Shown piece after piece: positions 5,207 to 24,263 of a stretch of DNA of 52,839 bases. Where the stretch lies: NCBI GenBank assembly GCA_903960845.1, contig CAJCCF010000582.1, forward strand, positions 1 to 52,839. Direction: 5' to 3'. Numbering within the stretch: the stretch's first letter is position 1; every line of letters begins with the position of its first letter. Below the pieces are notes generated by a model that worked only from the letters and a program-made list of their open reading frames with translations, searched no databases and was not told where the DNA came from. The stretch comes from an uncultured Verrucomicrobiota bacterium. Its GTDB lineage: Bacteria > Verrucomicrobiota > Verrucomicrobiia > Verrucomicrobiales > Verrucomicrobiaceae. The position numbers were made by a program, and so were the translations under genes.

Positions 5207-8200
5207 ATGTATCTCAAGACCCTTACCCTTCACGGCTTCAAGTCCTTTGCGGATAAGACTCAATTCGAGTTTCACAAAGGCGTCACCGGCATCGTCGGTC
5301 CCAATGGCTGTGGTAAGTCAAATGTCGTGGATGCCATCCGCTGGGTGCTGGGGGAAACCTCGGCCAAAGCGCTGCGCGGAGACGAGATGGCGGACGTCAT
5401 TTTCAATGGCACGGACAAGCGCAAACCGGTGGGCATGGCCGAAGTCATCCTAACCATGGCCGACTGTGAAGCTGCGCTGGGAGTGGATTACAACGAAGTC
5501 GCCATCTGCCGACGCGTCTTTCGTGATGGCCGCAGCGAGTACCGCCTCAATGGCACGGTCTGCCGCTTGAAGGACATCAATGATTTGTTTTCGGGCACAG
5601 GTATTGGCCGTCAGGCCTACTCGATCATGGCGCAGGGCCAGATTGACATGCTCCTGAGTTCCAAACCGGAAGATCGCCGAATGGTGTTCGAAGAAGCTGC
5701 TGGCATCACGAAATTCAAAGGTCAGAAAAAGGAGGCTCTGCGCAAACTTGAATACACGGAAGCCAACCTGCTGCGCGTCGCCGATGTCATTGCGGAAGTG
5801 AAACGCCAGATGGGCACGCTGCAGCGTCAGGCCGCCAAGGCCCGGCGTTATCAGACCTTGCTCGATGACGTGCGGATGCTCGACACTCATCTTGCCCACA
5901 AGCACTACATGGAGTTCAGCGCTGAAAAGCACGAGTCTGAAAACCATGTGCGCATGATGACCGAGCAGCTTGAGCAGCTCCAGGCACGTCTGCAAACCGC
6001 AGAGGTTGAGGCCGGCGAGACTCGCGAGGCGTATCACAGCATCGAGTCCCAGATCAACTCGCTCCGCCAGCAGGCGCAGGAGTTGCGCAGCCAGGTGCAA
6101 AGCGCGGAAGGGCGCATCGGTTTTAACAACGAGCGCAGCGAAGAATTGCACGGGCGCATCCGCCAGAACGAAGAACAGATCGAGCAGGGGCAGCGCAATC
6201 TCGACGAGCAGCGGCGCGAAATGATCAATGCTGACGAGCAGGTGCTCTCAATCCGTGAGAATCTGGAGACGCGCCAGCTCGCGCTCAACGAGCACACCGC
6301 CATTCATAATTCGATCACGCCGGACCGCAGCCGCCTTGATGCCGACCGCCGGTCAGTTCGCGAGAGCATCCGCCATTTTGAAGGCCAGATCGCTGCGGCT
6401 GATGCGCGCGCAAACAGTCTGAACAACCAGATCGTCAATGACCGTCAGCGTCATGAGACACTGGCCCATGACCGCCAGTCGGCAGAGCAGGTGAAAGCAG
6501 CCAGCCAGATCGAGTTCGACAATCTTCAGAGTGAAATCCAGGACCTGGAATCCACCCGCAACGAGCTTGATGAGAAGGCGAAAAACTGCGCGCGTGATAT
6601 CATCGAGAAGCGCCGCCATCGTGACACTTTGAATGAGGAATTGAATATTCTTCAGCGCAGTGTCACTCAGCGCCGTTCACGCATTGAAATCATCGAGCAG
6701 CTTTTGCAAAAAGGGGAGGGCTTGGCCGAGGGGACGCAGCAGGTGCTTCGTGGTCTCGACAATCCTGAAGTTTTCTCGGTGGGTGTGAGAGGTCTTCTGG
6801 CTTCCTCCATCGAGGTGGAGCCGCAGTTCATCGCCGCCATTGAGGCCGCATTGCGCGACCATCTTCAGGCTGTCTTGCTGACGGACAGTGAACTGGCATC
6901 CCAGATTCTTGATCGCCTTGCAGACAAGCAGCTTGGCAAGGCCGCGCTGCTTCCGCACGATTTCGCCACCATGCGCGCGGTGCCTGATCGCCAACTGGTG
7001 CCCGAGGGCGGCATTGCCTGGGCGGTGGATAAAGTGCGGGCAAAGGCCGGAGTGCAGGAGTTGACTGACCGCCTGTTGAACAACGTTCTGATCGTCGAGG
7101 ATTTGCATACGGCCATGCGTTTGAAGCGCCAGCTTCATGATGTGGCCATCGCTACATTGAAGGGCGAGTTCATTGCCGCCGATGGTGTCATCCATGGCGG
7201 GGCGACCAAGGAGGAAGCTGCATCCATGCTCCGCCGTGAAGCTGAAGTGCGCGCGCTGCGTGTGGAGTTGGAGGGTTTTGAATTTCAACTTTTGGAAAAA
7301 GAGGAAGCTGTGGAGCAACTCCGCCATGAGCTTGAGGAAATGCAGGCCGAAGAGGTCACCTTGCGCGAGCAGAGTCAGCGTGTGCGTGAAGGTTTCTCCA
7401 CACTCACCGGCAAGCTTTCTGTCGTGCAGCGTGCGCTTCAACAGGCCACGACCAAACTGGAAAGTGTCGAGTGGGATCAGGCCCAGATAACCAACCGCAT
7501 CCAGGCCGCCGAGGCTCAAATCACCTGGCAGAAGGAAGAGGCGGCCGTCGCTCAGGAACAGGTCGAAGCGGCCCGTATCCATGAGGCTGAACTGGAGTTG
7601 GAGATGGAGGCATTTCTGCGCCGCGAACTCGAATCCAGCGAACGTCTCAACGAACTCCGGACTGCGCTGGCGCTGGAACAAAGCGCGCTGCAATCCATCG
7701 AGCGTCAGAAGGCGCCTATGGCCACGCGTTTGCACGAACTGCAGGCCGCCATTCAGCGATTCGATCTTGAGATCAACACCTGGCGCAGCCGCATCGAGCA
7801 GAGCGCGGCTGAAAATGCGCGCTTCGCCGAGCAGGTCGAATCCCAGCGCGGTGCCATCTCCGCCATCGAAGAGCATTTGCAGGGCAAGACAGAGGAGCGT
7901 GCCGCCGCATTTGAGCGTGTCACCGAGTTGGAGAATCAGCTCGTCCAGTTGCGCCTGCAAACCAATGGATTGAGCGAGTCACGCAACCGCATTGAAGTCC
8001 AACTCACGCGGGTGGATCTGCGTTTGGAAAACCTCATCAGTCAGGTGCAGGAGCGCTACTCCTTCCACATCAGCGCTTTTGAACCCGACTACCATGCGCT
8101 CATGCTGAGCATTGATGAGCAGAAAAAGAGCCGCAGCCGAAGTGAAAAACGCAAAGCCACGCTGGCTGAGACGGATCAAAATGAATCATCAGACCAGGCT

Positions 8201-10825: not shown

Positions 10826-11830
10826 ATGTCTGAATCAGTTGCTCCTCCCCCCGCCGTCCCCGATCAGGAAACCATCGCCAAATCCGCCTCCTGGGTTCTC
10901 CCGCTTCGCGCGGAGATCGCCCGGGTGCTCATCGGTCAGACAGAACTCGTTGACCGATTGCTGGTTGCCTTGCTGACCAATGGACACGTTCTTCTCGAAG
11001 GTGTTCCAGGCCTGGCTAAAACACTCGCGGTGCGCACGCTTTCCAGTGCCCTCCACGCCGAGTTTAAGCGCATTCAGTTCACGCCCGACCTGCTTCCGGC
11101 AGACGTCGTGGGAACCATGGTTTATCACCCGAAGGAGGGCACCTTCACCCCGCGACTCGGCCCGATCTTTGCCAATCTGGTGCTGGCGGATGAAATCAAC
11201 CGTGCTCCTGCCAAGGTTCAAAGCGCTCTGCTTGAGGCGATGCAGGAGCGGCAGGTCACCATCGGTGAAAGAAGCTACAAGCTCCCGGATCCTTTCATGG
11301 TGCTGGCCACTCAGAACCCGATCGATCAGGAAGGCACCTACACCCTGCCGGAAGCTCAGCTTGACCGCTTTCTCTTCAAAGTCCGCGTGATCTATCCCAC
11401 ACCGACGGAAGAGCGTCAGGTGCTTGATGCCATGGCCACCAGTGCGCCGAAGCTTGACGTGAATCAGATCACCCAGGCGGCGGACATTGTTGCCAGCCGG
11501 GACATTGTGAACAGCATTTACATTGATGCGAAGATCCGCGACTACATCGTGTCCATCATTCATGCCACGCGCAATCCGGAGACTGTTGCGCCGCATTTGA
11601 AACTGCTGATCCGCTGTGGTGCCTCACCTCGCGGCACGATCAATCTGGCCCTGGCTACCAAGGCGCTGGCCTTCCTAGCCGGACGCAATTTTGTGACGCC
11701 GCAGGACATCAAGGATCTCGCTCCGGACATTCTGCGTCACCGCATCCTTCTCAGCTACGAAGCCGAGGCCGAAGGCGTGACCAGTGAGGATGTGATCAAG
11801 CAACTGCTCGACAAGCTGCCAGTGCCTTAA
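10826..11830 (+). CDS. MoxR-family AAA+ ATPase
   Basis: MoxR ATPases are thought to act as chaperones that assemble or activate partner proteins with VWA domains. Residues 57-66 hold Walker A (LEGVPGLAKT). Walker B with the family pattern ADEINRAPAKVQSALLEAM follows, then the sensor region ATQNPIDQEGTYTLPEAQLD and an all-alpha C-terminal lid. The length (334 residues) is typical. It opens a same-strand run: DUF58 protein, small membrane protein, two VWA proteins and a BatD-like protein, the classical MoxR/Bat arrangement. The start at 10826 follows a 126-bp gap after the lipoprotein gene, likely holding the operon promoter, although no clear -35/-10 pair can be named. Confidence 0.95.
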   Translation: MSESVAPPPAVPDQETIAKSASWVLPLRAEIARVLIGQTELVDRLLVALLTNGHVLLEGVPGLAKTLAVRTLSSALHAEFKRIQFTPDLLPADVVGTMVYHPKEGTFTPRLGPIFANLVLADEINRAPAKVQSALLEAMQERQVTIGERSYKLPDPFMVLATQNPIDQEGTYTLPEAQLDRFLFKVRVIYPTPTEERQVLDAMATSAPKLDVNQITQAADIVASRDIVNSIYIDAKIRDYIVSIIHATRNPETVAPHLKLLIRCGASPRGTINLALATKALAFLAGRNFVTPQDIKDLAPDILRHRILLSYEAEAEGVTSEDVIKQLLDKLPVP

Positions 11831-11912
11831 GCTGTTTTAGTCCGCTGTTCCCGGCTTGATGCCACACAGCCCCCTAACTAATTCTTGAAACCAAGGTCGG
11901 ATTGCCATTTGC

Positions 11913-12827
11913 ATGCCTGTATCGATTCCCAATGACGACGAACGCCTCAAGCGCATCCTCAAGCGCGTGCGGCGCATTGAGTTGATCACTCGCGGCATGG
12001 TCAAGGAGACGCTGGGTGGAGCTTACCATTCCAGGTTCAAGGGGCAGGGGATTGAGTTTGATGACTTCCGCGAGTACCAGCCGGGGGATGATGTGCGGTT
12101 TTTGGACTGGAATGTGACGGCGCGCATGAACGAACCCTTTGTGCGCAAATACATCGAGGAGCGCGAGTTGACGGTGATGCTGGTGGTCGATGTCAGCGGC
12201 TCTGGCGACTATGGCAGTCAGGAAGACAGCAAGCGTGAGCGTGCCGCGGAAGTCGCGGCTGTGTTTGCCTTCAGCGCGGTGCAGAATCAGGACAAGGTCG
12301 GGCTCGTGCTTGTTTCCGATCAGGTTGAGCATTACCTGCCTGCCCGGAAAGGTGGCAGTCATGCACTGCGCTGCCTGCGTGACATTCTCAACATCCAGCC
12401 CGCGAGCCGCCGCACCGATCTGGTGCCCGCCCTGGATCTCGCTTTGGAGCGCATCGCCCATCGCGCCCTGGTGGTGGTGGTTTCAGATTTCCTCACGAAG
12501 GATGATGCCTGGGAGAAAAGTCTGCGTGCCCTGGCGGCCAAGCATGATGTCGTCGCCGCCCAGATCACCGACCCGCGCGAGTGGGAACTGCCTAATCAGG
12601 GACGTGTCTGCCTGGAGGATCCGGAAACGGGCGAGCAGTACATCGTGAACACGTCTCATCCGGCCGTGCGCCAACAATATGCCCAGCGTATGAGTGACCG
12701 GCAGGACACACTGAACCGGATGTTGCGGAAAAATGGCGTGGAGCGGCTCGATGTGCGCACGAACGACGATTACGTGCCTGCTCTCAAAGCCTATTTCCGG
12801 TCACGCAAAAGGAGGAAACGCGGATGA
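11913..12827 (+). CDS. DUF58 domain protein (VWA-like) of the MoxR/Bat operon
   Basis: DUF58 proteins accompany MoxR ATPases and contain a VWA-like fold; their biochemical role is unsettled. The 304-residue product shows the signature block FDDFREYQPGDDVRFLDW at about residues 49-66, then NEPFVRKYIEERELTVMLVVDVSGSG, where DVSGS resembles a MIDAS metal site. A second conserved strand VVVVSDF is followed by a typical C-terminal half. There is no signal peptide, so it should be cytoplasmic. The gene ends in an ATGA overlap with the next one, so translation is probably coupled. The 82-bp gap from moxR has no terminator. Confidence 0.93.
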   Translation: MPVSIPNDDERLKRILKRVRRIELITRGMVKETLGGAYHSRFKGQGIEFDDFREYQPGDDVRFLDWNVTARMNEPFVRKYIEERELTVMLVVDVSGSGDYGSQEDSKRERAAEVAAVFAFSAVQNQDKVGLVLVSDQVEHYLPARKGGSHALRCLRDILNIQPASRRTDLVPALDLALERIAHRALVVVVSDFLTKDDAWEKSLRALAAKHDVVAAQITDPREWELPNQGRVCLEDPETGEQYIVNTSHPAVRQQYAQRMSDRQDTLNRMLRKNGVERLDVRTNDDYVPALKAYFRSRKRRKRG

Positions 12828-13363
12828 ACCGGATCTTCGTGTTTCTTGCCCAGGCACCGCAGGCTGAGGGGCCACCCCCGCAGCCTCTGCCGCATCCCGA
12901 ACTGCCTGCTCCGACCATGGTTGCTCCCGGGCCTGACTGGTTGGTCTATGCCCTGGTGGCCGGAGTGGTCATCTTCATGCTGACTCTCGTCATCTGGCTG
13001 CTTTTGCGCCCCTCGAAAGCCAGGCCGCCACAATTGAAAAAACCATGGCAAACGGCAATGAACCGTCTGCGCGATCTCCTCGTGCAATCTTCTCGGTTGC
13101 CACCGTCTGAAACTGCGATGGCCGTGTCTGAGACATTGCGGGTATACTTCATGGAGCGATATAAAATCCCGGCTCCGTTCCGCACGACGCAGGAACTGTT
13201 TCAGCGTGGCGGCATCCCCGCCTCCTCGCTACGCCTGAACCGTTATGAGTCGCTGGCTGAGGTCTGGGACCAGCTCGCCTTTGCGCCCGTGCCAGCAAAC
13301 CCGGCTGAGGCTGCGGCGCTGGTGCAAAAAGCTATTGAGTCACTTGAGGAGGACCGCGCATGA
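12824..13363 (+). CDS. One-pass membrane protein of the Bat operon (DUF4381-like position)
   Basis: A 179-residue protein with a Pro-rich periplasmic N-terminus (residues 10-38), one strong membrane helix (about 39-64, WLVYALVAGVVIFMLTLVIW) and a cytoplasmic helical domain. It overlaps the genes on both sides by 4 bp (ATGA), so it is a core member of the operon. In many MoxR/DUF58/VWA operons this slot is filled by a small DUF4381 protein, which it resembles in size, topology and position; that assignment is from context rather than a clear motif. The start is fixed by the overlap. It may anchor or bridge the MoxR-DUF58 pair to the VWA membrane proteins. Confidence 0.85.
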   Translation: MNRIFVFLAQAPQAEGPPPQPLPHPELPAPTMVAPGPDWLVYALVAGVVIFMLTLVIWLLLRPSKARPPQLKKPWQTAMNRLRDLLVQSSRLPPSETAMAVSETLRVYFMERYKIPAPFRTTQELFQRGGIPASSLRLNRYESLAEVWDQLAFAPVPANPAEAAALVQKAIESLEEDRA

Positions 13364-14385
13364 GCATTCCATTTTTTCGCGACATGATCTTTGCACGGCC
13401 TGAGTGCCTGCTGCTTCTGCTGGCTCTTCCGGTCATGGCCTGGTGGCGGGGCAAGCCGGGACGGGCACCCACGATTGCTTTTTCCACCACCTTCCTTTTG
13501 CGTGATCTGGGAACTCAGGCCAAGTCATCGCGCGGAGGTTTCACCATGGGGCTGGTGCTGCTGAGCATCGCTGCGGGCATCCTCGCGCTGGCACGGCCGC
13601 AGAAGGTCATCTCCCATGATGAAGACAACACTGAAGGTATCGCCATCTGTCTGACGGTGGATGTTTCACTCTCGATGTTGATCGAGGATTTCTACATTGG
13701 CGGCAGTCCGGTCAACCGGCTCGCGGCGGCGAAACGAGTGATGCGCGATTTCATCCGTGGCCGCACGAATGATCGCATCGGCATCGTCGCCTTTGCAGGT
13801 GCGCCCTATCAGCCCTGCCCGCTGACCTTTCAGCGCGACTGGCTGGAGGCGAATCTGGACCGTGTGCAGACGGGCGTCATGGAGGATGGTACGGCCATTG
13901 GTTCAGGTCTGGCCGCCGCCTCCCGCCGTCTCGACAAGGACACCGTGCCCAGCAAGGTGATCATCATGCTCACCGACGGCGCGAACAACAGCGGCAAACT
14001 CAGTCCACCGGATGCGGCCAAACTCGCCGCCACACTCGGGCAAAAAATTTACACCATTGCCATCGGCACACCGGGCGTTCACATGATCCCCCTGCCAAAC
14101 GGTCGCGTCATCACCAGCGGCAGGCAGGAGTTCGATGAAGGCACGCTTCAGGAAGTGGCCCGCATCGGCAATGGCAGCTTCTACATGGCGCAGGACCTTG
14201 GTGCGCTTCAGGAGATCTTTGCCACCATCGACAAGCTTGAGAAAAAAGAGATCAAGCACCGCAGCATCACGGAGGTCGAGGAGAAGTTCTTTTATCCGCT
14301 GGCCGCCGCTTCCGCGTTGCTGGGGCTGGCGCTGCTGCTTCGCTTCACCTTGTTGAACGCCTCACCCATGGCTGTTGCCACCTGA
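13360..14385 (+). CDS. batA: BatA-like VWA-domain membrane protein
   Basis: VWA protein of the Bat (Bacteroides aerotolerance-type) system. The 341-residue product has two N-terminal membrane segments (about 10-25 and 62-80), a VWA domain with a complete MIDAS motif D-V-S-L-S starting at Asp101, a later TDGANNSG loop, and a final membrane helix (about 308-330). This topology places the VWA domain between helices as in BatA. A strong GAGGAGG ribosome-binding site lies about 8 bp before the ATG, inside the preceding gene, and the ATG overlaps that gene's stop. The role is probably protein-protein contact in a periplasmic complex controlled by the MoxR ATPase. Confidence 0.92.
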   Translation: MSIPFFRDMIFARPECLLLLLALPVMAWWRGKPGRAPTIAFSTTFLLRDLGTQAKSSRGGFTMGLVLLSIAAGILALARPQKVISHDEDNTEGIAICLTVDVSLSMLIEDFYIGGSPVNRLAAAKRVMRDFIRGRTNDRIGIVAFAGAPYQPCPLTFQRDWLEANLDRVQTGVMEDGTAIGSGLAAASRRLDKDTVPSKVIIMLTDGANNSGKLSPPDAAKLAATLGQKIYTIAIGTPGVHMIPLPNGRVITSGRQEFDEGTLQEVARIGNGSFYMAQDLGALQEIFATIDKLEKKEIKHRSITEVEEKFFYPLAAASALLGLALLLRFTLLNASPMAVAT

Positions 14386-14396
14386 CTCCTGCCACC

Positions 14397-16343
14397 ATGA
14401 CTTTCCTCGCTGCAAAGATCCTTTACTGTCTCTCAATCCTGCCGCTTCTGGCAGTGTTGAAGCTGTGGGCGGACTGGCGCGCAGGGAAAGTGCAGTCCGC
14501 CTTCACTTCACCGCGGCTCAGGGACATGCTGGTCACGGGCGTTTCACTCCGGAGATCCTGGATCATTTTCACGCTGCAATTGCTGGCCCTCGGTTGCTTC
14601 ATCTTTGCCCTAGCCAGGCCGCGCTGGGGCGAGGACAAGATCGTGCAGCAGGAGTCGGGCAGAAATGTCATCATCGCCATCGACACCTCCCGTTCGATGC
14701 TGGCAAACGATATCGTGCCTGACCGCATCACCCGGGCCAAGCTGGCCACGCAGGACGTGCTGGCCTCGTTGAAAAACGACCGTGTGGGCCTGATCGCCTT
14801 TGCCGGAAACGCCTACCTTCAGGCCCCATTGACGACCGATCACGATGCGGTCGCTGAGGCCATCCAATCGCTCGACTTCACGTCCGTTCCACGCGGCGGC
14901 AGTGAGATCGGCCGCGCTCTCAAACTTGCGGTGGAGACATTTGAAAAGAGTCCCGCCAGGAATCATGGGTTGATCCTTTTCAGTGATGGCGGCGAGCCGG
15001 ACATCGAGATCACCGAATATTCAAAACAGGCTGCTCAGAAGAACATTCTCGTGCTCACCGTCAGTGTCGGAACGGAGGCCGGGGCGCTCATTCCTGATCC
15101 CGATCCCGCGCGTGCCGGCGAGTTTGTGCGCGACCAGCAGGGGAATGTGGTGAAGACACGCATGGAACCCAAGGTGCTTCAGGAAATCGCAACGGCCACG
15201 CGTGGCCGGTACATGAAACTTGGTTCCCAGCCTCTGGCCGTTTCCGTGGTCAAAGACCTGCTCTCCGCCCTTCAGGCACAAACCAACGCGGCGAAGGAAC
15301 TTGTGAAGCCGATTGAGCGTTTTTACTGGCCGTTGTCTATCGGTATGCTGCTGCTTGTCAGCGCCTGGCTCATCCGTCCCTCCTCCCGCATGAAAACCTA
15401 CACACCCGCACTGGCCCTCCTGGCATGGAGCTTCCTCACTCCAGCTGCTCAGGCAAATGACACGTTTCTGGGCTCCGTATTCGGCTCGAAAAAGCCCGAT
15501 CCGCAACAGGCGCTCGATGCCTATAAGGAGGGCGATTTTGACCATGCGGCGAAGCTTTACGAAGAGCTGATGAAAAGTTCCTCATCTGAAGCGCGGCGTC
15601 AGCAATTTGCTTTTGGACTCGGCAATGCCGCGCACCAGATCAAGGACTACGACCGCGCCGTTGGCGGATTCAGCAGAGCCTTGGAATCGGAGGACCGGGG
15701 CACACAAAACCAGGCGCATCGCGGCATGGCCCACAGTCTCTATGATCAGGGTGACCGCGCTTTGGCAAAGCAGCCGAAATTTTCCCTCAAAGCCTGGCGT
15801 GACAGCGTCAAGCACTTCGACGCCGCTTTAAAAATCGACCCCGCCAACAAAGAGGTGCAGGAGAATCGTGACTTCGTGAAGAAGCGCCTCGAGGAACTGC
15901 AAAAGAAGATGGACGAGCAGGAAGGCAAAGACGGCAAGAAGGGCGATAAAGGCAAAAAAGGTAAGAAGGGCGAAAAGGGTGAGAAGGGCGAATCCGACGA
16001 CGGCGATCAGGAAGGCGACGGCGATGGCGAGGACAAGGATAAGTCACGTAAAGAAAGCCTCGGCAAGAAGGAGGACGAGGAAGGTGAAGACGGCAAGGGC
16101 GGCGACAAAGAGAAGGAGCAGGAAGGCAAGCTCCAGGCTGGCAAAGAAGGTGATCAGGAAAGTGCGGAAGCCCGTGAGCGCCGAGAACAGCGTGAGGCTG
16201 AAATGGCAGGCAATGAGAAGGATGACGCCACCGGCTTCAGCCGCAATGAAGCCCGCTCCTTTTTGCGCACCTATGCCGATGATCAAAAGAAGGCCCTGCT
16301 GGTGCGTCCGCGGGATGCGCCTGTGAACGGCAAGGATTGGTAA
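14397..16343 (+). CDS. BatB-BatC fusion: VWA domain plus TPR and charged tail
   Basis: This 648-residue product combines two Bat proteins. Residues 1-330 are BatB-like: N-terminal membrane helices, a VWA domain with MIDAS D-T-S-R-S at Asp96, and a closing membrane helix (YWPLSIGMLLLVSAWLI). At residue 332 (ATG at 15390) a complete signal-peptide-like segment begins (MKTYTPALALLAWSF, cleavage-like AQA). It is followed by TPR-type helices (about 360-500), as in BatC. Residues about 508-620 are Lys/Glu/Gly/Asp-rich and include eight consecutive G-x-y triplets at 15922-15993. The gene starts 11 bp after batA and ends 25 bp before the BatD-like gene. The frame is continuous, so this is a true fusion unless translation also starts at 15390. 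Confidence 0.9.
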   Translation: MTFLAAKILYCLSILPLLAVLKLWADWRAGKVQSAFTSPRLRDMLVTGVSLRRSWIIFTLQLLALGCFIFALARPRWGEDKIVQQESGRNVIIAIDTSRSMLANDIVPDRITRAKLATQDVLASLKNDRVGLIAFAGNAYLQAPLTTDHDAVAEAIQSLDFTSVPRGGSEIGRALKLAVETFEKSPARNHGLILFSDGGEPDIEITEYSKQAAQKNILVLTVSVGTEAGALIPDPDPARAGEFVRDQQGNVVKTRMEPKVLQEIATATRGRYMKLGSQPLAVSVVKDLLSALQAQTNAAKELVKPIERFYWPLSIGMLLLVSAWLIRPSSRMKTYTPALALLAWSFLTPAAQANDTFLGSVFGSKKPDPQQALDAYKEGDFDHAAKLYEELMKSSSSEARRQQFAFGLGNAAHQIKDYDRAVGGFSRALESEDRGTQNQAHRGMAHSLYDQGDRALAKQPKFSLKAWRDSVKHFDAALKIDPANKEVQENRDFVKKRLEELQKKMDEQEGKDGKKGDKGKKGKKGEKGEKGESDDGDQEGDGDGEDKDKSRKESLGKKEDEEGEDGKGGDKEKEQEGKLQAGKEGDQESAEARERREQREAEMAGNEKDDATGFSRNEARSFLRTYADDQKKALLVRPRDAPVNGKDW

Positions 16344-16368
16344 CTGCAAGCAACCCTCCAACGACTGC

Positions 16369-18903
16369 ATGAAGTTTTTAGTTTTCACATTTCAATTTTT
16401 AATTCTCAGTCTCGCTCAGGCCGCGACGGTTCGCGCTTATGTGCAACCGGACAAGGCCCGGCCTAACCAGACGATCAACTATGTGATTTCCGTGCAGGAC
16501 GGCCAGGTTCAGAGTTTGCCCGGCCTGCGTTTTCCACTTCAGATCGCGCAGACCAGCGGTGTGTCCACCTCCCAGCAAATCAGCATTGTGAATGGCCGGC
16601 AGAGCGTGTCCCTTCAGCTTTCCTGGGGCATTGCCGCTTCGGAACCCGGGTCGTTTGTGATCCCTCCGCAAACCATCGTTGTGGACGGCCAGTCGATGAC
16701 CACCAATGAGGTCAAATTGAACGTGGAACAAGGCGGCGCGGCTTTTCCAAATGCCAGCAATGGCCAGACTGCCGAGGATAAGAATGCACCCATCCTTCAG
16801 ATCGAGCTGGGCAAAAAAGAAATCTATCAGGGGGAGGTCGTGCCGGTGAATTGCAGCCTTTATGTGCCACGCCAGACACAACTTCAGCGCCTCGGTCTCA
16901 TCGAGATTGCGAAAAGTGATTTTGCCATCGCACGGTTCCCGCAGACGAACGAACAGACCAGCACGGTGATCGACGGCATTGGTTACTACGTGCTCACTTT
17001 CCGCAGCACCCTGTCATCTCTCCGAACCGGTGACTTGAAGGTTGGGCCCGCCACGCTGGAGCTCCTCGTTCAAGTGCCGATGGAAGGGCAACCGCGCCAG
17101 ATCCTTCCGCCCGGTTTTCCGCAGGGCTTTTTCGGCGGAGTTTCAGAGCCACGCAAGATGGTGGTCAAAAGCCAGCAGGTGACCTTGAAAGTCCTGCCTC
17201 TTCCGACTGAGGGAAAGCCGGCCAATTTCAGTGGTGCCGTGGGCGATTTCCAGATGACTGCCAGTGCCACGCCGACTGATCTCACTGTCGGTGATCCGGT
17301 CTCGGTTGAGCTGACGGTGACCGGGGCCGGCAATTTCGATGCAATCACCACGCCCGCCATCATTTCCAATGGTGGATGGAAGCTGTACCCGGCGAAGCGC
17401 TACAACATTGAAGGCCAGCTCGACCAGAACCAGACGCCGACGCTTGAACGCAAGGTTGGTTATTCTCAGGTCCTTGTTCCGGAGGCGGTGCATCCCGCCG
17501 TTCCGCCGTTTGAATTGAATTTCTTCAGCGCTGCTGAGAAAAAATACGTCACCCTGCGGACTCAGCCCATCCCTCTGGCCATGAAGCCTGCGCCTGCCAC
17601 TGCCGCATCTGAATCGGCTCCAGCCGGCGCCGCCGTGGTGGCTGACCTGCCTCCGCCGGTGGTCGATCCCCAGGCGGACATCACGGACATTCTGATCAAT
17701 CCAGCCGCCAGTTCCCAATGGATCGCGCCGACCGGGATGCTGCTGCTGAAAAGCCGCGCCTTCTGGACGGCACAGGCGCTGCCGGTCGGTCTGTTTGCGC
17801 TCGCGAGCGTGCTTGCCTTTGCCCGCCGCCGCCGTGAAGAGAGCAACGCGGGCCGGGCAGGGGAGTTGCGTGAGGCCTGGAGCAGTTTCGAGAAGGCGGG
17901 TGCTGATGATCATGATTTCCTGCACCGCGCCGCTCAATTCATTCAGACCGCCAGTGGGGCCTCACCCGCAGCGGATCCTGCTTTGAAAGCCATTCTCGAC
18001 CGCTACGCCAACACCAACTTCAGCGCCGCCCCCGCCGCACCATTGACCAGCTCCGAGCGCCGCAGCATGCAGCAAACCTTGTCAGAGTTGATGCGGAAAT
18101 CGCTGGCCAAACTTAGCGTCATCGCACTGGCACTCCTTTGTCTCGGAACTGCTCAGGCGGCGGACGGCAAGCCCGAAACGACACCTGATGACATTTATCG
18201 TGAAGCCGTCACCGAACTCAAAAATGCCAATTACACCAAGGCTCAATACCTCGCCGAATCACTGACGAAAAAGAATCCGCCACTGCTCAGTGCCGAGGTG
18301 TTCGAACTCATCGGTCATGCCCGCTACCGGCAAAAAGATCTGGGACGTGCCGCATTGTGGTATCAGCGCGCGCAGCTCTTGAATGGTCGCACACCGGAAC
18401 TTCGGCAGAATCTGCGTCACTTGTTTGAGCGCAGCCGTTACCTGACTTTTGGTTCAGCTTCGCCCCTCACTGCGGCCAGCACCTGGCTCACGCACAATGA
18501 GTGGCTCATCCTCGCTTCCGTTGGACTGTGGCTGGTCTTGCTTTCGCTTTCCTGGCGTGTGTTCACTGGCCGGCGCCGCGCCATCTGGCCTGTGATTGTT
18601 TCTGCCATTGGCCTGCTCATCCTTGTGCCAGCCTCGGCCTTGGCCGCGCTACGGCCGGAAAGTACTGAGCGTGTTGAAGGCATCAGCATTGTCACCCAGC
18701 CTGACGTGAACTCCTACACCTCCGCCACGGCCACCAGTGGCACCGTCATTCCGCTGCCTCCAGGCAGTCAGGTCCGAACACTGGAAAAGCGCGGCACCTG
18801 GCTTTATGTCGAGATCCCCAGCCAGCCCGAAAACCTGCGGGGATGGGTCGAATCCGCAGCGGTCACTCCACTTTGGGTCTGGGACACGAAACTGGTGCCT
18901 TGA
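16369..18903 (+). CDS. BatD-BatE-like fusion: Ig-like periplasmic protein plus TPR and SH3-like end
   Basis: Residues 1-570 are BatD-like: signal peptide (LVFTFQFLILSLAQA), several beta-sandwich segments, a membrane helix at about 466-480 and a short basic cytoplasmic stretch. At residue 575 (ATG at 18091) a second signal-like segment appears (KLSVIALALLCLGTAQA). Next comes a TPR region (about 600-695), two membrane helices (about 710-770), and a final SH3-like domain ending in RGWVESAAVTPLWVW. The second half resembles BatE. Two orthodox membrane insertions would put both globular parts outside the cytoplasm. The gene is the last of the Bat run; a 182-bp gap with a candidate promoter separates it from the ABC cassette. 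Confidence 0.88.
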   Translation: MKFLVFTFQFLILSLAQAATVRAYVQPDKARPNQTINYVISVQDGQVQSLPGLRFPLQIAQTSGVSTSQQISIVNGRQSVSLQLSWGIAASEPGSFVIPPQTIVVDGQSMTTNEVKLNVEQGGAAFPNASNGQTAEDKNAPILQIELGKKEIYQGEVVPVNCSLYVPRQTQLQRLGLIEIAKSDFAIARFPQTNEQTSTVIDGIGYYVLTFRSTLSSLRTGDLKVGPATLELLVQVPMEGQPRQILPPGFPQGFFGGVSEPRKMVVKSQQVTLKVLPLPTEGKPANFSGAVGDFQMTASATPTDLTVGDPVSVELTVTGAGNFDAITTPAIISNGGWKLYPAKRYNIEGQLDQNQTPTLERKVGYSQVLVPEAVHPAVPPFELNFFSAAEKKYVTLRTQPIPLAMKPAPATAASESAPAGAAVVADLPPPVVDPQADITDILINPAASSQWIAPTGMLLLKSRAFWTAQALPVGLFALASVLAFARRRREESNAGRAGELREAWSSFEKAGADDHDFLHRAAQFIQTASGASPAADPALKAILDRYANTNFSAAPAAPLTSSERRSMQQTLSELMRKSLAKLSVIALALLCLGTAQAADGKPETTPDDIYREAVTELKNANYTKAQYLAESLTKKNPPLLSAEVFELIGHARYRQKDLGRAALWYQRAQLLNGRTPELRQNLRHLFERSRYLTFGSASPLTAASTWLTHNEWLILASVGLWLVLLSLSWRVFTGRRRAIWPVIVSAIGLLILVPASALAALRPESTERVEGISIVTQPDVNSYTSATATSGTVIPLPPGSQVRTLEKRGTWLYVEIPSQPENLRGWVESAAVTPLWVWDTKLVP

Positions 18904-18952: not shown

Positions 18953-19085
18953 CTCTCCGGACGAATACTCTGGCCTCTGATGGCACCGGCCAATTGCGCT
19001 AAAACAGTTTCCAGGGTTGCCATCGCGGGACGAGCGGGCTTTAATCCCTGTTCCCTCCGTTTTTATCCGTCCCCCCACCCACGAC

Positions 19086-20024
19086 ATGATTGTAGTTCAG
19101 GATCTCACCAAACAGTATGCAGGACGCACTGCGGTGGATCATGTCTCATTTCAGGTGGAGCCGGGTGAGATTGTGGGTTTCCTGGGACCAAATGGCGCAG
19201 GCAAGTCCACGACGATGCGCATGCTGACCGGCTACATCCCGCCGACGAGTGGCCGGGCGACGGTGAATGGGTTTGATGTTTACCATCAATCCATTCAGGT
19301 GCGCCGCTCCGTGGGTTACATGCCTGAGATGGCACCGCTTTACACCGACATGCGGGTGAAAGAGTACCTGCGATTTCGGGCTGAATTAAAGGGACTGTCC
19401 GGCTCTGTGCTGCGCCACCGCGTGGGTGAGGTGATGGACATGTGCGCGATCACGGATGTCCGCCGTCGTCTGATCGGCAATCTTTCCAAAGGCTACCGCC
19501 AGAGGGTCGCGCTGGCAGACGCGCTGGTTCACAAGCCGCCGCTTTTGATTCTGGACGAGCCAACGAACGGCTTGGATCCGGTGCAGATCCGGCAGGTGCG
19601 CGATTTGCTGCGGAGTCTGCGCCCGGCTCACACCATCCTGCTTTCTACCCACATTTTGCAAGAGGTTGAGGCAGTGTGTGATCGCGTTCTGATGATCCAT
19701 CAGGGACGCATCCGTGCCGTCGACACACCGGACAATCTGACCCGCAAACTGCGCGCGGCCTCCCTGGTTCAAATCGAGATGCAGGGCGATGGTGATGTGA
19801 TCGCTCTGCTCGAGGCCCTGCCTGGCGTGCGCAAGGCAACGCAGGACAGTGAACTGGATGGATGGCGTTTCATTTCTCTGCGCGTCGAGGCCCGGCACGA
19901 TGTGCGTGAGGCACTCGCGGATCTGGCGCTGATTCAAAAATGGAAGATCCGTGAGTTGCACCGCCAACTGCCGAGTCTTGAGGATGTGTTTGTGGACTTG
20001 GCTGCATCGGAGCCGGGTAAATGA
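19086..20024 (+). CDS. ABC transporter ATP-binding protein, GldA-like
   Basis: ATPase subunit of an ABC-2 type exporter. The 312-residue product has Walker A GPNGAGKST (about 38-46), Q-loop region GYMPEMAPLY, signature LSKGYRQRV, Walker B LLILDEPTNGLDP and the switch STHILQEVE, then a C-terminal extension of about 90 residues typical of GldA/NatA-like ATPases. The ATG at 19086 is preferred because the domain then starts with MIVVQDLTKQYAGR; an upstream in-frame start at 19017 adds an unrelated leader. The next genes encode the permease and a GldG-like protein, the same order as in gliding-motility-type transporters. The transported substrate is unknown, and nothing else in the window implies gliding. 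Confidence 0.93.
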   Translation: MIVVQDLTKQYAGRTAVDHVSFQVEPGEIVGFLGPNGAGKSTTMRMLTGYIPPTSGRATVNGFDVYHQSIQVRRSVGYMPEMAPLYTDMRVKEYLRFRAELKGLSGSVLRHRVGEVMDMCAITDVRRRLIGNLSKGYRQRVALADALVHKPPLLILDEPTNGLDPVQIRQVRDLLRSLRPAHTILLSTHILQEVEAVCDRVLMIHQGRIRAVDTPDNLTRKLRAASLVQIEMQGDGDVIALLEALPGVRKATQDSELDGWRFISLRVEARHDVREALADLALIQKWKIRELHRQLPSLEDVFVDLAASEPGK

Positions 20025-20039
20025 TGGACTATTGATCAC

Positions 20040-20798
20040 ATGCGAATTTTCTGGGTACTCTTTAAAAAGGAATTGCGGGCATTTTTCGTCTCGCCGGTGG
20101 CCTACATCGTTCTGGCACTGGTGATGGTGCTGAGCGGTTACTCGTTTCGCGCTGCGCTTTCGGTGCTGGAGAGCGCTCCCAGTGATGGATCGATCGTAAC
20201 ATGGATCTTTCAGCCGAGCTGGTTTTGGCTGTCCTACTTCTTCATTTTCCCGCTGTTGACGATGCGATTGTTTGCGGAAGAAAAGAAGATGGGAACCTTT
20301 GAGACGCTTTTCACAACGCCGGTCTATGCCTGGCAGGTGGTGCTCTCAAAATATCTGGCAGCCCTTTTCGTGTACTGCGTGCTTTGGGTCCCGAGTTACA
20401 TCAATTTCCAGTTCGTGGACTGGATCACGGCCGGGCAGGTGGAGATACCCTCCGGCGGCCTGAAGGGCAGCTACATCATCCTGCTGGCGATGGGCTTGTT
20501 TAATCTGGCCATTGGTTGCTTTGCCTCCTCACTGACCTCCAACCAGATCGTCGCGGCGATCATCTCGTTCACCTTCAGCCTGCTGCATTTCCTGGCGGGT
20601 CTTTTCATCATGGTGGTCGGCCGGAAGGTCTCAGAATCCTTTGTCGACATCATCAATTATTTCGCGAGCACGGAGCACATCCGCACCTTCACCAACGGGC
20701 TGATCGACACGCGACCGCTGGTATACTATTCGAGTCTGGCTTTGCTGTTTCTGGTCCTGACACACCATGTGCTGGAGTTCAGAAGATGGCGTCCGTGA
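20040..20798 (+). CDS. ABC-2 type permease, GldF-like
   Basis: Membrane partner of the preceding ATPase. The 252-residue product begins MRIFWVLFKKELRAFFVSPVAY, the usual ABC-2 permease start with a cytoplasmic amphipathic helix and a first membrane segment. It shows about six membrane helices, including SWFWLSYFFIFPLLTMRLFAEEKKMGTFE, where the conserved E-EK-GT-E coupling segment is visible. It begins 15 bp after the ATPase stop, so the two are almost certainly co-expressed. The short length and the GldG-like gene that follows support a GldF-type assignment. Confidence 0.93.
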   Translation: MRIFWVLFKKELRAFFVSPVAYIVLALVMVLSGYSFRAALSVLESAPSDGSIVTWIFQPSWFWLSYFFIFPLLTMRLFAEEKKMGTFETLFTTPVYAWQVVLSKYLAALFVYCVLWVPSYINFQFVDWITAGQVEIPSGGLKGSYIILLAMGLFNLAIGCFASSLTSNQIVAAIISFTFSLLHFLAGLFIMVVGRKVSESFVDIINYFASTEHIRTFTNGLIDTRPLVYYSSLALLFLVLTHHVLEFRRWRP

Positions 20799-20864
20799 CA
20801 TGGCCTGAAGCGCTGCCGCCCGTCTGATCCTTACCCCAACTTTTCATTTCCCCTTATCAAACCG

Positions 20865-22352
20865 ATGTCTGACACCCCACCAACCACCACTCCCGCTTCC
20901 GCGCCCATGCCGCGCCGCCTTGGGATCGGGGTGAATGTGCTTGTGCAGATCTTTCTCACCCTGGCGATTTTTTTCGGCATCAACCGCCTCAGCTACCGCT
21001 ACCACGCGCGTTGGGATCTAAGCCCACAGCAGAATTACACCATCAGTTCCGCGACACTGAACTATCTGGACAAGCTCTCGAAGGATGTTTTCATCGCCAA
21101 TGTGTTTGCCCGTGATTCGAAGATTTACGGGGATGTGCAGACACTTCTGGAGGAATACCGGCTCAAGGGACGCGGGCGTGTCAAGGTGCGCTCCATCGAT
21201 CCAGTCCGTGACATTGAGCGCGCTGAATCGCTGAAAGCCGAGACGGGGCTGCCACTGGATCAAAGTGGTGTCGTGGTGCGTGTTGGCTCGCGCACGCGCT
21301 TCATCACGGAGGAGGAGCTCGTGGTGCGTGAAAACAGCACGGAGACACAGCGCAGGATCAAGGAATTCCGCGGTGAGGATGCCATCACTTCGGCGATCAT
21401 CAATGTCGTCGAGGGCGCGGAGCGGAAGTTTTACATCGTCGTCGGCAAAGGCGCGCGCACCGAGGGCTCGCTGATTGATGCGATGGTAAGCATCGGCGAA
21501 CTTGGCCGGCAGCAGAATTTTCAACTCTTCCCGCTCAATCTCACTGAAGTCAGTCAGGTCCCGGCTGATGCGGATGGTGTGCTGCTTGTGGGGCTGCGTT
21601 ATGATTTGTCGGAGAGTGAGATCGCCATGATCAAATCCTACTGGGAAAGCAAGCGCTCCGGCATGCTGGTGCTTCTCGATCCATCGGGCGAGACGCCCCG
21701 GTTGAATGCCTTCCTTGGTCTTCAGGGCGTGCTGCCGCGCGGCGACCGCGTTCTTTACGCCGAGAGCACGGGCACCGGTACGCGGAAAGAATTTTCCGTG
21801 CAGGCTGTCTTTGATGATGAGTCCACCATCACCCGGCAGCTGGCTGCCAGCACGACGACACTTCCGGGTCAGTCAGAGTCGCTTGAGGTGCGTTTTGACG
21901 ACGAGTATCTGAAGAATCAAAACATCACCGTGCAGCCGCTGATCGGTGCCACCGACCGCTACTGGGGTGAGAAAAACTACCTGGAAGACCTGCCTGTGGT
22001 TGATGACGAGGATAACAAAAAGCCCATCTATCTGGCAGCCTCCATCGAGCGCGGAACGGTCACGGATGAGAAACAGCGTGTCGACAGCTGCCGCATGGTG
22101 GTGGTGGGGAATTCGTCCATGCTCGACAAAAAGTCCGCCTTGGCCGTGAACCGCGATTTCGTGGCCGGCAGTCTGAACTGGATCATCAATCGCGAGAGCT
22201 ACATCGGTATTCCTCCAAAACAAAAGCACAGCTACCGCATCCAGCTCACGCAGAAGCAGGGTGAGATCATCTTTTGGAGCACCACCTTTGTGTTTCCCTC
22301 CTTTGTGCTCTGCCTGGGAATGCTGGTATGGGCCAGTCGCCGGGCGGCATGA
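20865..22352 (+). CDS. GldG-family ABC transporter auxiliary protein
   Basis: The 495-residue protein has one N-terminal membrane helix (about 22-45, LVQIFLTLAIFFGINRL), a large extracytoplasmic region, and one C-terminal helix (about 470-490, TTFVFPSFVLCLGMLVWAS) followed by RR. The segment just after the first helix (RWDLSPQQNYTISSATLNYLD) is characteristic of GldG-like proteins. A middle block resembles the ABC-type uncharacterised transport domain (YIVVGKGARTEGS, LLVGLRYDLSESE). It lies 66 bp after the permease. Its role is presumably to contact substrate or cell wall on the outer face of the transporter; this is inference from family and topology. Confidence 0.88.
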   Translation: MSDTPPTTTPASAPMPRRLGIGVNVLVQIFLTLAIFFGINRLSYRYHARWDLSPQQNYTISSATLNYLDKLSKDVFIANVFARDSKIYGDVQTLLEEYRLKGRGRVKVRSIDPVRDIERAESLKAETGLPLDQSGVVVRVGSRTRFITEEELVVRENSTETQRRIKEFRGEDAITSAIINVVEGAERKFYIVVGKGARTEGSLIDAMVSIGELGRQQNFQLFPLNLTEVSQVPADADGVLLVGLRYDLSESEIAMIKSYWESKRSGMLVLLDPSGETPRLNAFLGLQGVLPRGDRVLYAESTGTGTRKEFSVQAVFDDESTITRQLAASTTTLPGQSESLEVRFDDEYLKNQNITVQPLIGATDRYWGEKNYLEDLPVVDDEDNKKPIYLAASIERGTVTDEKQRVDSCRMVVVGNSSMLDKKSALAVNRDFVAGSLNWIINRESYIGIPPKQKHSYRIQLTQKQGEIIFWSTTFVFPSFVLCLGMLVWASRRAA

Positions 22353-22421
22353 GAAACGAATCACGAACGTTCAATCCCCCAGTTCGAACGCTCACCAACT
22401 TCCAACCCAAGCATCTGAGAC

Positions 22422-24263
22422 ATGCGCCTGCGCACCACACTTCTGCTTCTGCTTCTCGTCATCGCTCTCGGCGCTGTCATTGTCGGTATTGAGCGTTACC
22501 TGCCGTCGACACGCGAGTTGCTGGAGATGAAAAAAGGCCCCGGCCGTTTCGATCGCGCCAAGATCACCCAGATCGAGATCGACTCCAGTGGTGGCGACGG
22601 GGTGAGTCTTTCCTGGGACGGATCACGGTGGTGGGTGCGGCGCCCCTTCAATGATCTGGCCGACCCTGCCAAGGTTGCCAAGCTGCTTGCCGAACTCGCC
22701 AACATCGGCTGGATCAACCGCGTGCACCGGGATGAGTTTGATGATGGCGGATGGACGCGAACCCAGCTCGACAAGCCGCATCACACGGTGCAGCTGATGT
22801 CCGGGGCTGCGAATGTTTTGCAGCTTTCCCTCGGCGCTCAGACGCCTGTCGGCGGGAGTCATTACCTGACGCTGGCGTCAGCCAAAGCAGGTGAGGAGCC
22901 TGCGCAATATGTCGCCAAGACCACCCTGCCGGAGATGCTCAAGACCACACCACAGGACTGGCGTGATGCCAAGCTGCTGCGTCTGCCTGCTGACATGGTC
23001 TTGAATGTGAAACTGGTGCAGGCAGGCGGTCAAATCGAGCTGGCTCGCGCAAGTGAACGGGCACCCTGGATGCTGGTGAAACCGCTGAGCACTCGCGGCA
23101 GCAAGGAACGCATCAGCGAACTGCTTTCCGCTCTGCTGAATCTGGAAATCAAGGAGGCCGCCGAGCCTGCCGGCGGCACCAAGCCGCCTGTCGCCGCAAC
23201 CGGTTTGGCGGACATCACGGTGCAGGATCTGAAGATCAGCGTGGTGGTGAAAGGACTGGCCAAGCCTTTTGAGATCACGCTCATGAAACCGGTCGCGGAC
23301 GCGGTCACGACCACGGCGCAGGTCAGCTATCGCAAGCCTGTTTTCACTATCACTTCAAAGTCTCTCGCCAATCTCTGGGCTCAGCCTAACGATCTGCGAG
23401 ACCGGATGCTGGCGCGAATCGACAAGGAGGCGGTCACGCAGGTGGATGTCACCAGCGCGCTGCATCAGCCGATTCATCTCGAAAAGAAAAACGAATCCTG
23501 GTTTCTCAGCCGGCACAAGCGCTTGGAGCCCGCCAATGGAGATCGCGTGATCAAGTTTTTCGAAGCGCTGAACACTTTTCAGATTCATGAGTTCACCGCC
23601 GACAGCGCCTCCAACCTGACGGAATACGGTCTCGACAATCCCTTCATGACCGCCGCGTGGACCGAGGGCTCGGCCAAGCCGTCGAAACTGATCTTTGGCA
23701 CCAACAAAGAGAGCACCGACTTCTTTGCCAAGTATGAGAACGAACCGTCCGTGTATCGAGTTGATGCAAGCATCCTGCCCAGCATCCCGCAGGAAGCGAT
23801 CAAATGGAAGGGGCTCGGCGCGTTACGATTTACCCAGTTTGCACTGCGTCAAATCAGCCTCGCTGCGGGCACTGCGCCGCCCGTGGTGCTGAAATACGAC
23901 GCCACCACAGCGCAATGGACCGGTGAGCGTGCCGGTCAAAACATCAGCGCTCTGATTGACCGTGTGAAGGCTGACAAACTGGCCGGTTCGCTGTCCAAGT
24001 TCAGTGTTCAGGACTGGGCAGGGGATGTGACCAATGCCATCACGGCGCTGCAAAACCCGGCGTTGCGTGTGGTCGTCACCCTCGGAGAACCCGGAACGAA
24101 CACCGGGCCGACCCGGGACACGATTCTTAACTTTGCCCCAACCCAGGCAGGCATGGATACCACGCTTTATTTCGGCCAGGTGCAGGGTGATCCCGATGTC
24201 TTCTACATCGCCCGGGGAACGCTGCTGGAGCTTCTGGCACCGGTTCTCAAAAAGACCAAATAG
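22422..24263 (+). CDS. DUF4340 domain protein
   Basis: The 613-residue product has an N-terminal membrane anchor (LLLLLLVIALGAVIVGI, about 8-24), then repeated beta-rich modules exposed to the periplasm. The start of the first module (RFDRAKITQIEIDSSGGDGV, followed by the W-V-R pattern) is typical of DUF4340, and related modules recur at about residues 270-360 and 370-460. DUF4340 proteins usually follow GldG-like genes, as here, with a 69-bp gap. No enzymatic motif is visible. It is the last member of the ABC cassette and is probably an envelope component of the same complex; the molecular function is unknown. Confidence 0.85.
   Translation: MRLRTTLLLLLLVIALGAVIVGIERYLPSTRELLEMKKGPGRFDRAKITQIEIDSSGGDGVSLSWDGSRWWVRRPFNDLADPAKVAKLLAELANIGWINRVHRDEFDDGGWTRTQLDKPHHTVQLMSGAANVLQLSLGAQTPVGGSHYLTLASAKAGEEPAQYVAKTTLPEMLKTTPQDWRDAKLLRLPADMVLNVKLVQAGGQIELARASERAPWMLVKPLSTRGSKERISELLSALLNLEIKEAAEPAGGTKPPVAATGLADITVQDLKISVVVKGLAKPFEITLMKPVADAVTTTAQVSYRKPVFTITSKSLANLWAQPNDLRDRMLARIDKEAVTQVDVTSALHQPIHLEKKNESWFLSRHKRLEPANGDRVIKFFEALNTFQIHEFTADSASNLTEYGLDNPFMTAAWTEGSAKPSKLIFGTNKESTDFFAKYENEPSVYRVDASILPSIPQEAIKWKGLGALRFTQFALRQISLAAGTAPPVVLKYDATTAQWTGERAGQNISALIDRVKADKLAGSLSKFSVQDWAGDVTNAITALQNPALRVVVTLGEPGTNTGPTRDTILNFAPTQAGMDTTLYFGQVQGDPDVFYIARGTLLELLAPVLKKTK

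Follow-up and report, generated by a model that had tools for sequence, protein, structure and literature searches.

The window analysed here, the whole stretch of 52,839 nucleotides from an uncultured Verrucomicrobiota bacterium, contains two consecutive genes that each join two Bat proteins in one reading frame and retain a signal-peptide-like segment at the join. This arrangement raises the question of whether each gene yields one long protein, a long and a short product, or a precursor that is separated into two mature proteins.

The Bat operon and its two fusion genes

The window is one contig in a draft genome of 774 contigs, for which the nearest named organisms are Prosthecobacter and other Verrucomicrobiaceae. 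Based on open reading frames and Pfam matches, we identified a Bat operon at positions 10826–18903 with the order MoxR-DUF58-DUF4381-like-BatA-BatB/C-BatD/E. A MoxR ATPase, a DUF58 protein, the VWA proteins BatA and BatB, BatD and TPR proteins are thus present in a single operon, and the gene order agrees with that of annotated Bat operons, including the position of the DUF4381-like gene. The features are as follows.

10826–11830, + strand: MoxR-type AAA+ ATPase, which opens the Bat operon (Pfam AAA_3, 7.8e-65)
11913–12827, + strand: DUF58/VWA protein (Pfam DUF58, 2.7e-82)
12824–13363, + strand: small membrane protein, DUF4381-like (Pfam DUF4381, 6.6e-4, under the curated cut-off)
13360–14385, + strand: BatA, a VWA protein (Pfam VWA and BatA_N, both above cut-off)
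14397–16343, + strand: BatB-BatC fusion gene, 648 amino acids (open frame and Pfam)
14397–15389, + strand: BatB part, with two N-terminal membrane helices, VWA domain and C-terminal membrane helix (about residues 308–326)
15390–15455, + strand: internal signal-peptide-like segment of BatB-BatC, residues 332–353, MKTYTPALALLAWSFLTPAAQA, predicted cut before Asn354
15456–16340, + strand: BatC part, with TPR domain (Pfam TPR, residues 371–429) followed by a charged low-complexity tail
16369–18903, + strand: BatD-BatE fusion gene, 844 amino acids (open frame, Pfam and alignment)
16369–18090, + strand: BatD part, with a signal peptide at the N-terminus, then the BatD domains, a membrane helix (about residues 470–488) and a C-terminal domain predicted to be cytoplasmic
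18091–18159, + strand: internal signal-peptide-like segment of BatD-BatE, residues 575–597, MRKSLAKLSVIALALLCLGTAQA, predicted cut before Ala598
18160–18900, + strand: BatE part, with TPR, two membrane helices (about residues 709–731 and 738–757) and SH3-like C-terminus

A prior sequence-only reading of this DNA had described two Bat fusions without an intervening stop, each retaining the signal peptide of its second partner and an internal ATG at the join. Our analysis confirmed this description: both frames are open (14397–16343 and 16369–18903), each partner pair lies in one uninterrupted frame in the known order, the ATGs are present at position 15390, encoding residue 332, and at position 18091, encoding residue 575, and the segments at residues 332–353 and 575–597 are complete and signal-like. 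Pfam identified VWA, BatA_N and TPR in the first fusion protein and BatD and TPR in the second, with some matches in the two proteins falling under the curated cut-offs. The BatD part is supported by Pfam BatD (8e-18) and by alignment. As for the proposed TPR/SH3 composition of BatE, the TPR portion was recovered by Pfam (TPR_16, under cut-off), whereas no Pfam SH3 match was found at the C-terminus and the SH3-like assignment is our reading of conserved sequence in the alignment.

Downstream of the Bat operon, positions 19017–24263 contain a predicted ABC transporter cluster (an ATPase, a permease, a GldG-type-like protein and one more large protein) that is apparently unrelated to it.

Distribution and age of the fusions

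The BatB-BatC fusion with an open frame was found in 102 of 102 Verrucomicrobiae loci in which both parts could be identified, and, as judged by open-frame length, in many of the phylum's other members, though not in every one. The statement that these are usually separate genes is accurate for Bacteroidota, where batB and batC are usually split, but not for Verrucomicrobiae, where their fusion is the rule. The BatD-BatE fusion is more unevenly distributed. Among 240 genomes of the order, it occurs throughout the window's genus and across one family, probably the Akkermansia group (f2); within the window's own family, other genera have the two genes split, as do two further families (f3 and f4). 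In a tree built from BatD at 119 loci, the fused or split state changes at least seven times, and both the window's clade and f2 consist of fused loci only.

The suggestion that the two fusions are recent joins is not supported, given the class-wide occurrence of BatB-BatC together with the BatD tree, in which the BatD-BatE fusion spans two deep clades. Two relatives with split genes, L061 and L063, carry batD and batE in the same frame, separated by one TGA, with an ATG soon after; the batD stops are localised near position 6828 (reverse strand) in L061 and near 6056 in L063, and these loci are possible intermediates between the fused and split states. Also, the loci L053, L155, L157 and L159–L161 contain BatD/BatE genes with no BatA or BatB in the approximately 6 kb fetched upstream, and the Bat operon appears to be split in these genomes.

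Cleavage-site motifs at the joins

Precursors that signal peptidase cuts into two proteins are a known kind of gene product. In Bradyrhizobium the single gene fbcH encodes a cytochrome b/c1 precursor that signal peptidase separates into two subunits, and this cutting has been demonstrated experimentally. The joins of the Bat fusions have a comparable composition, with an n-region, a short h-region and a site with small residues at −3 and −1, positioned after a stretch predicted to be cytoplasmic. Nearly every fused protein contains a short hydrophobic stretch ahead of the TPR domain that ends in a small-x-small motif, most often with Ala; this stretch sits after the last BatB helix or after the cytoplasmic end of BatD and is usually preceded by positive charges.

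We scored the joins with a signal peptidase I matrix, namely the classic von Heijne prokaryotic matrix (column totals of 36, and of 35 in one column), and not with SignalP. In the window, the joins RMKTYTPALALLAWSFLTPAAQA followed by ND (BatB-BatC) and MRKSLAKLSVIALALLCLGTAQA followed by AD (BatD-BatE) score 7.1 and 7.4, respectively. Median scores of the internal segments were 5.3 for BatB-BatC (n = 102) and 6.6 for BatD-BatE (n = 79), to be compared with 5.7 and 4.5 for the true N-terminal signal peptides of split BatE and of BatD, and with 1.3, 1.3, −1.5 and −1.8 for control membrane helices of the same proteins. The class designated BC_split was left out of the evidence because it consists mostly of BatE matches. 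Joins exceeded the control helices locus by locus (paired P from 9e-8 to 3e-18), and by genus means in 19 of 23 and 23 of 23 genera for BatD-BatE and in 35 of 42 and 40 of 42 genera for BatB-BatC. As expected of an fbcH-like precursor, the motif is therefore conserved above the control helices across the 42 and 23 genera sampled for BatB-BatC and BatD-BatE. Fused and split BatE score alike (P = 0.66; genus means, P = 0.57), as expected if cleavage were still selected after fusion. Scores are not uniformly high: 17 of the 79 fused BatD-BatE loci fall below 2, and fused loci outside the class reach a median of only 3.6.

Within the window's genus alone the matrix is not discriminating, because the third helix of BatE, used as a control, has high scores as well (median 8.4, against 7.4 at the join). 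Among fused loci outside this genus the same helix has a median of −0.3 versus 4.9 at the join. The helix (18580–18650 in the window) runs in-to-out and ends in PASALA/ALRP in the window's genus, with the slash marking the predicted site, and mostly not elsewhere. This motif may represent a second cut that would free the SH3-like end, or it may be a false positive of the matrix.

Joins outside Verrucomicrobiota

Fused BatB-BatC proteins of Pseudomonadota and Myxococcota have the same second segment directly after the last BatB helix. The Pseudomonadota with this segment include Agrobacterium, Rhizobium, Sinorhizobium, Paracoccus, Caballeronia and Cupriavidus as well as Vibrio, Photobacterium, Pseudoalteromonas, Aeromonas, Klebsiella and Pantoea, and the Myxococcota are represented by two loci, both from Myxococcaceae. 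Join motifs outside the phylum include SNAEA/I, NEAHA/A, GRAEA/A, GPARA/V and SAHA/D.

Bacteroidota provide a lineage-specific signature. In this phylum the products of signal peptidase I mostly start with Gln, the so-called Q-rule (PMC5837995), and this N-terminal Gln is later cyclised (PMC5837995; PMC10653852). All ten of ten fused Bacteroidota BatB-BatC proteins carry Gln at +1, and in split Bacteroidota BatC the same place is nearly always occupied by a small residue followed by Gln; homology to split BatC was used to assign the sites in Bacteroidota, which do not always have the top matrix score. Under the same lenient rule, Gln(+1) was found in 10 of 10 Bacteroidota versus 16 of 102 Verrucomicrobiota fusions (P = 9e-8), and the contrast persisted when the ten were collapsed to five fused lineages by our own grouping (P = 2e-4). 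An eleventh fused Bacteroidota protein, from Persicobacter, has at its join not Gln but a lipobox-like LLLMG/C, which would make most sense if signal peptidase II cuts the segment.

Predicted processing of the fusion proteins and alternative explanations

We consider it likely, from the properties of the joins, that each gene encodes one precursor from which signal peptidase would produce two mature proteins. In this scheme each fusion would be translated as a precursor that spans the membrane and contains two Bat proteins. The chain of the first partner would end in the cytoplasm, after the C-terminal helix of BatB or after the cytoplasmic domain of BatD. The signal peptide of the second partner would then re-enter the membrane in-to-out and deliver the TPR partner to the periplasm, where signal peptidase I would cut after A-x-A and release mature BatC or mature BatE. 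The signal segment would stay on BatB or BatD as an extra C-terminal membrane anchor. The likely benefit would be that both partners are made in a fixed 1:1 ratio and reach one Bat/MoxR complex together.

The cytoplasmic location of the BatB C-terminus and of the C-terminal domain of BatD is predicted from the distribution of charges (positive-inside rule) and from Borrelia BB0173, whose VWA domain is periplasmic by experiment (PMC5700661). A gene for signal peptidase I is present in the window's genome, and with a conserved site predicted to face the periplasm, cutting into two would be the simplest reading. Somewhat less firmly, we regard it as rather probable that fused BatB-BatC in at least four phyla and BatD-BatE in Verrucomicrobiota constitute widespread, overlooked polyprotein genes. 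Their products would be separated by the general signal peptidase, and the join would be selected for cutting, with lineage versions that include the Gln(+1) and lipobox-like forms.

The main rival to cleavage is that the former signal peptides are now mere membrane helices that tether BatC to BatB and BatE to BatD in the same topology, which corresponds to the earlier proposal of four proteins in two chains. The segment would be needed anyway for the TPR domains to reach the periplasm, partners of complexes are commonly tethered by fusion, and published reports take these proteins as plain fusions (PMC3557215, PMC5700661). However, a tether requires hydrophobicity, and not the A-x-A motif, the short h-region or Gln(+1); the joins retain these features in 42 genera and several phyla, whereas neighbouring helices do not. 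The conserved motif and Gln(+1) in Bacteroidota thus favour cleavage of a precursor, an option absent from the sequence-only reading, and we view uncut chains as unlikely. A far smaller probability is attached to the proposal that the ATGs at 15390 and 18091 are also used as starts of short BatC and BatE pre-proteins, so that each gene would give a long and a short product. Most of the closest relatives (L035–L038, L040, L042 and L043) retain the ATG at the BatB-BatC join. The relative L036, which is 80% identical, lacks the ATG at 18091. No ribosome-binding motif was found at either internal ATG of the window; this absence does not exclude their use, because true starts of this operon, including those of BatB and BatD in the window, often lack a Shine-Dalgarno sequence too. 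Arguing against the proposal as a general mechanism, no ATG, GTG or TTG occurs near the segment in 46 of 102 fused BatB-BatC and 27 of 79 fused BatD-BatE loci, and ATG is rarer in the fused genes than in split batE (33/79 versus 30/36, P = 4e-5). Internal initiation is therefore unlikely as a rule across the fusions, although the window species may use it.

The remaining explanation, that an assembly or sequencing error erased stop codons at the joins, we consider to have a negligible chance. Apart from the draft state of the genome, we found no support for it, and independent genomes at 98%, 80% and about 50–70% identity as well as the whole class have the same joins open. The BatD-BatE frame is open in two genomes of 98% and 80% identity and in those same-genus genomes that gave a full-length match, where the fusions span about 48–98% identity with no stops. 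The sequencing error that the sequence-only reading had itself raised is thus dismissed by relatives that keep both frames open.

Relation to known systems

Like fbcH, the Bat fusions place the signal peptide of a periplasm-facing partner after a membrane protein; they differ in that fbcH encodes unrelated proteins of a respiratory complex and its cutting is experimentally established, whereas cutting of the Bat fusions is predicted from sequence. To our knowledge, hardly any bacterial polyprotein besides cytochrome b/c1 has been described as a substrate that signal peptidase cuts. In the literature searched, the coverage of which was incomplete, we found no two-protein precursor of this type in Bat operons, nor any report of cutting from proteomics or biochemistry.

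Both fusion types have already been published in spirochaetes. A BatB-BatC fusion was reported in Leptospira biflexa, and Borrelia, Spirochaeta and Francisella have other bat fusions (PMC3557215). Borrelia BB0170 is described as a BatD-TPR-SH3 fusion (PMC5700661), the same single-gene BatD-BatE arrangement as in the window but in a spirochaete. The L. biflexa protein and the Pseudomonadota VWA-TPR proteins, annotated as “TPR domain protein in aerotolerance operon”, have the same partners in the same order, within an operon MoxR-DUF58-VWA-VWA-BatD as in the window. The available parts of these reports and annotations describe the fusion only, and a conserved cleavable signal at the join is not mentioned in them; likewise, the available part of PMC5700661 contains no discussion of cleavage of BB0170.

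Published evidence from other species implicates Bat proteins in tolerance of oxygen or oxidative stress (PMC3557215, PMC11834572), and the MoxR/VWA stress system is widespread and poorly understood. If the fusions are cut, genes previously read as ordinary fusions would be small bacterial “polyproteins”, and their annotation as single VWA-TPR or BatD-TPR-SH3 proteins would misdirect structural modelling, estimates of stoichiometry and the design of mutants. Hidden polyproteins could then be recognised by a simple sequence rule, namely a “fusion” in which a hydrophobic segment runs in-to-out and carries a conserved cleavage site.

The BatI operon of Bacteroides fragilis encodes the same protein set and differs from the window in having separate batA–batE genes, each with its own start. 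At the Bacteroidota loci L281–L297, many split batB-batC pairs match through one frame, with one or two stops between them.
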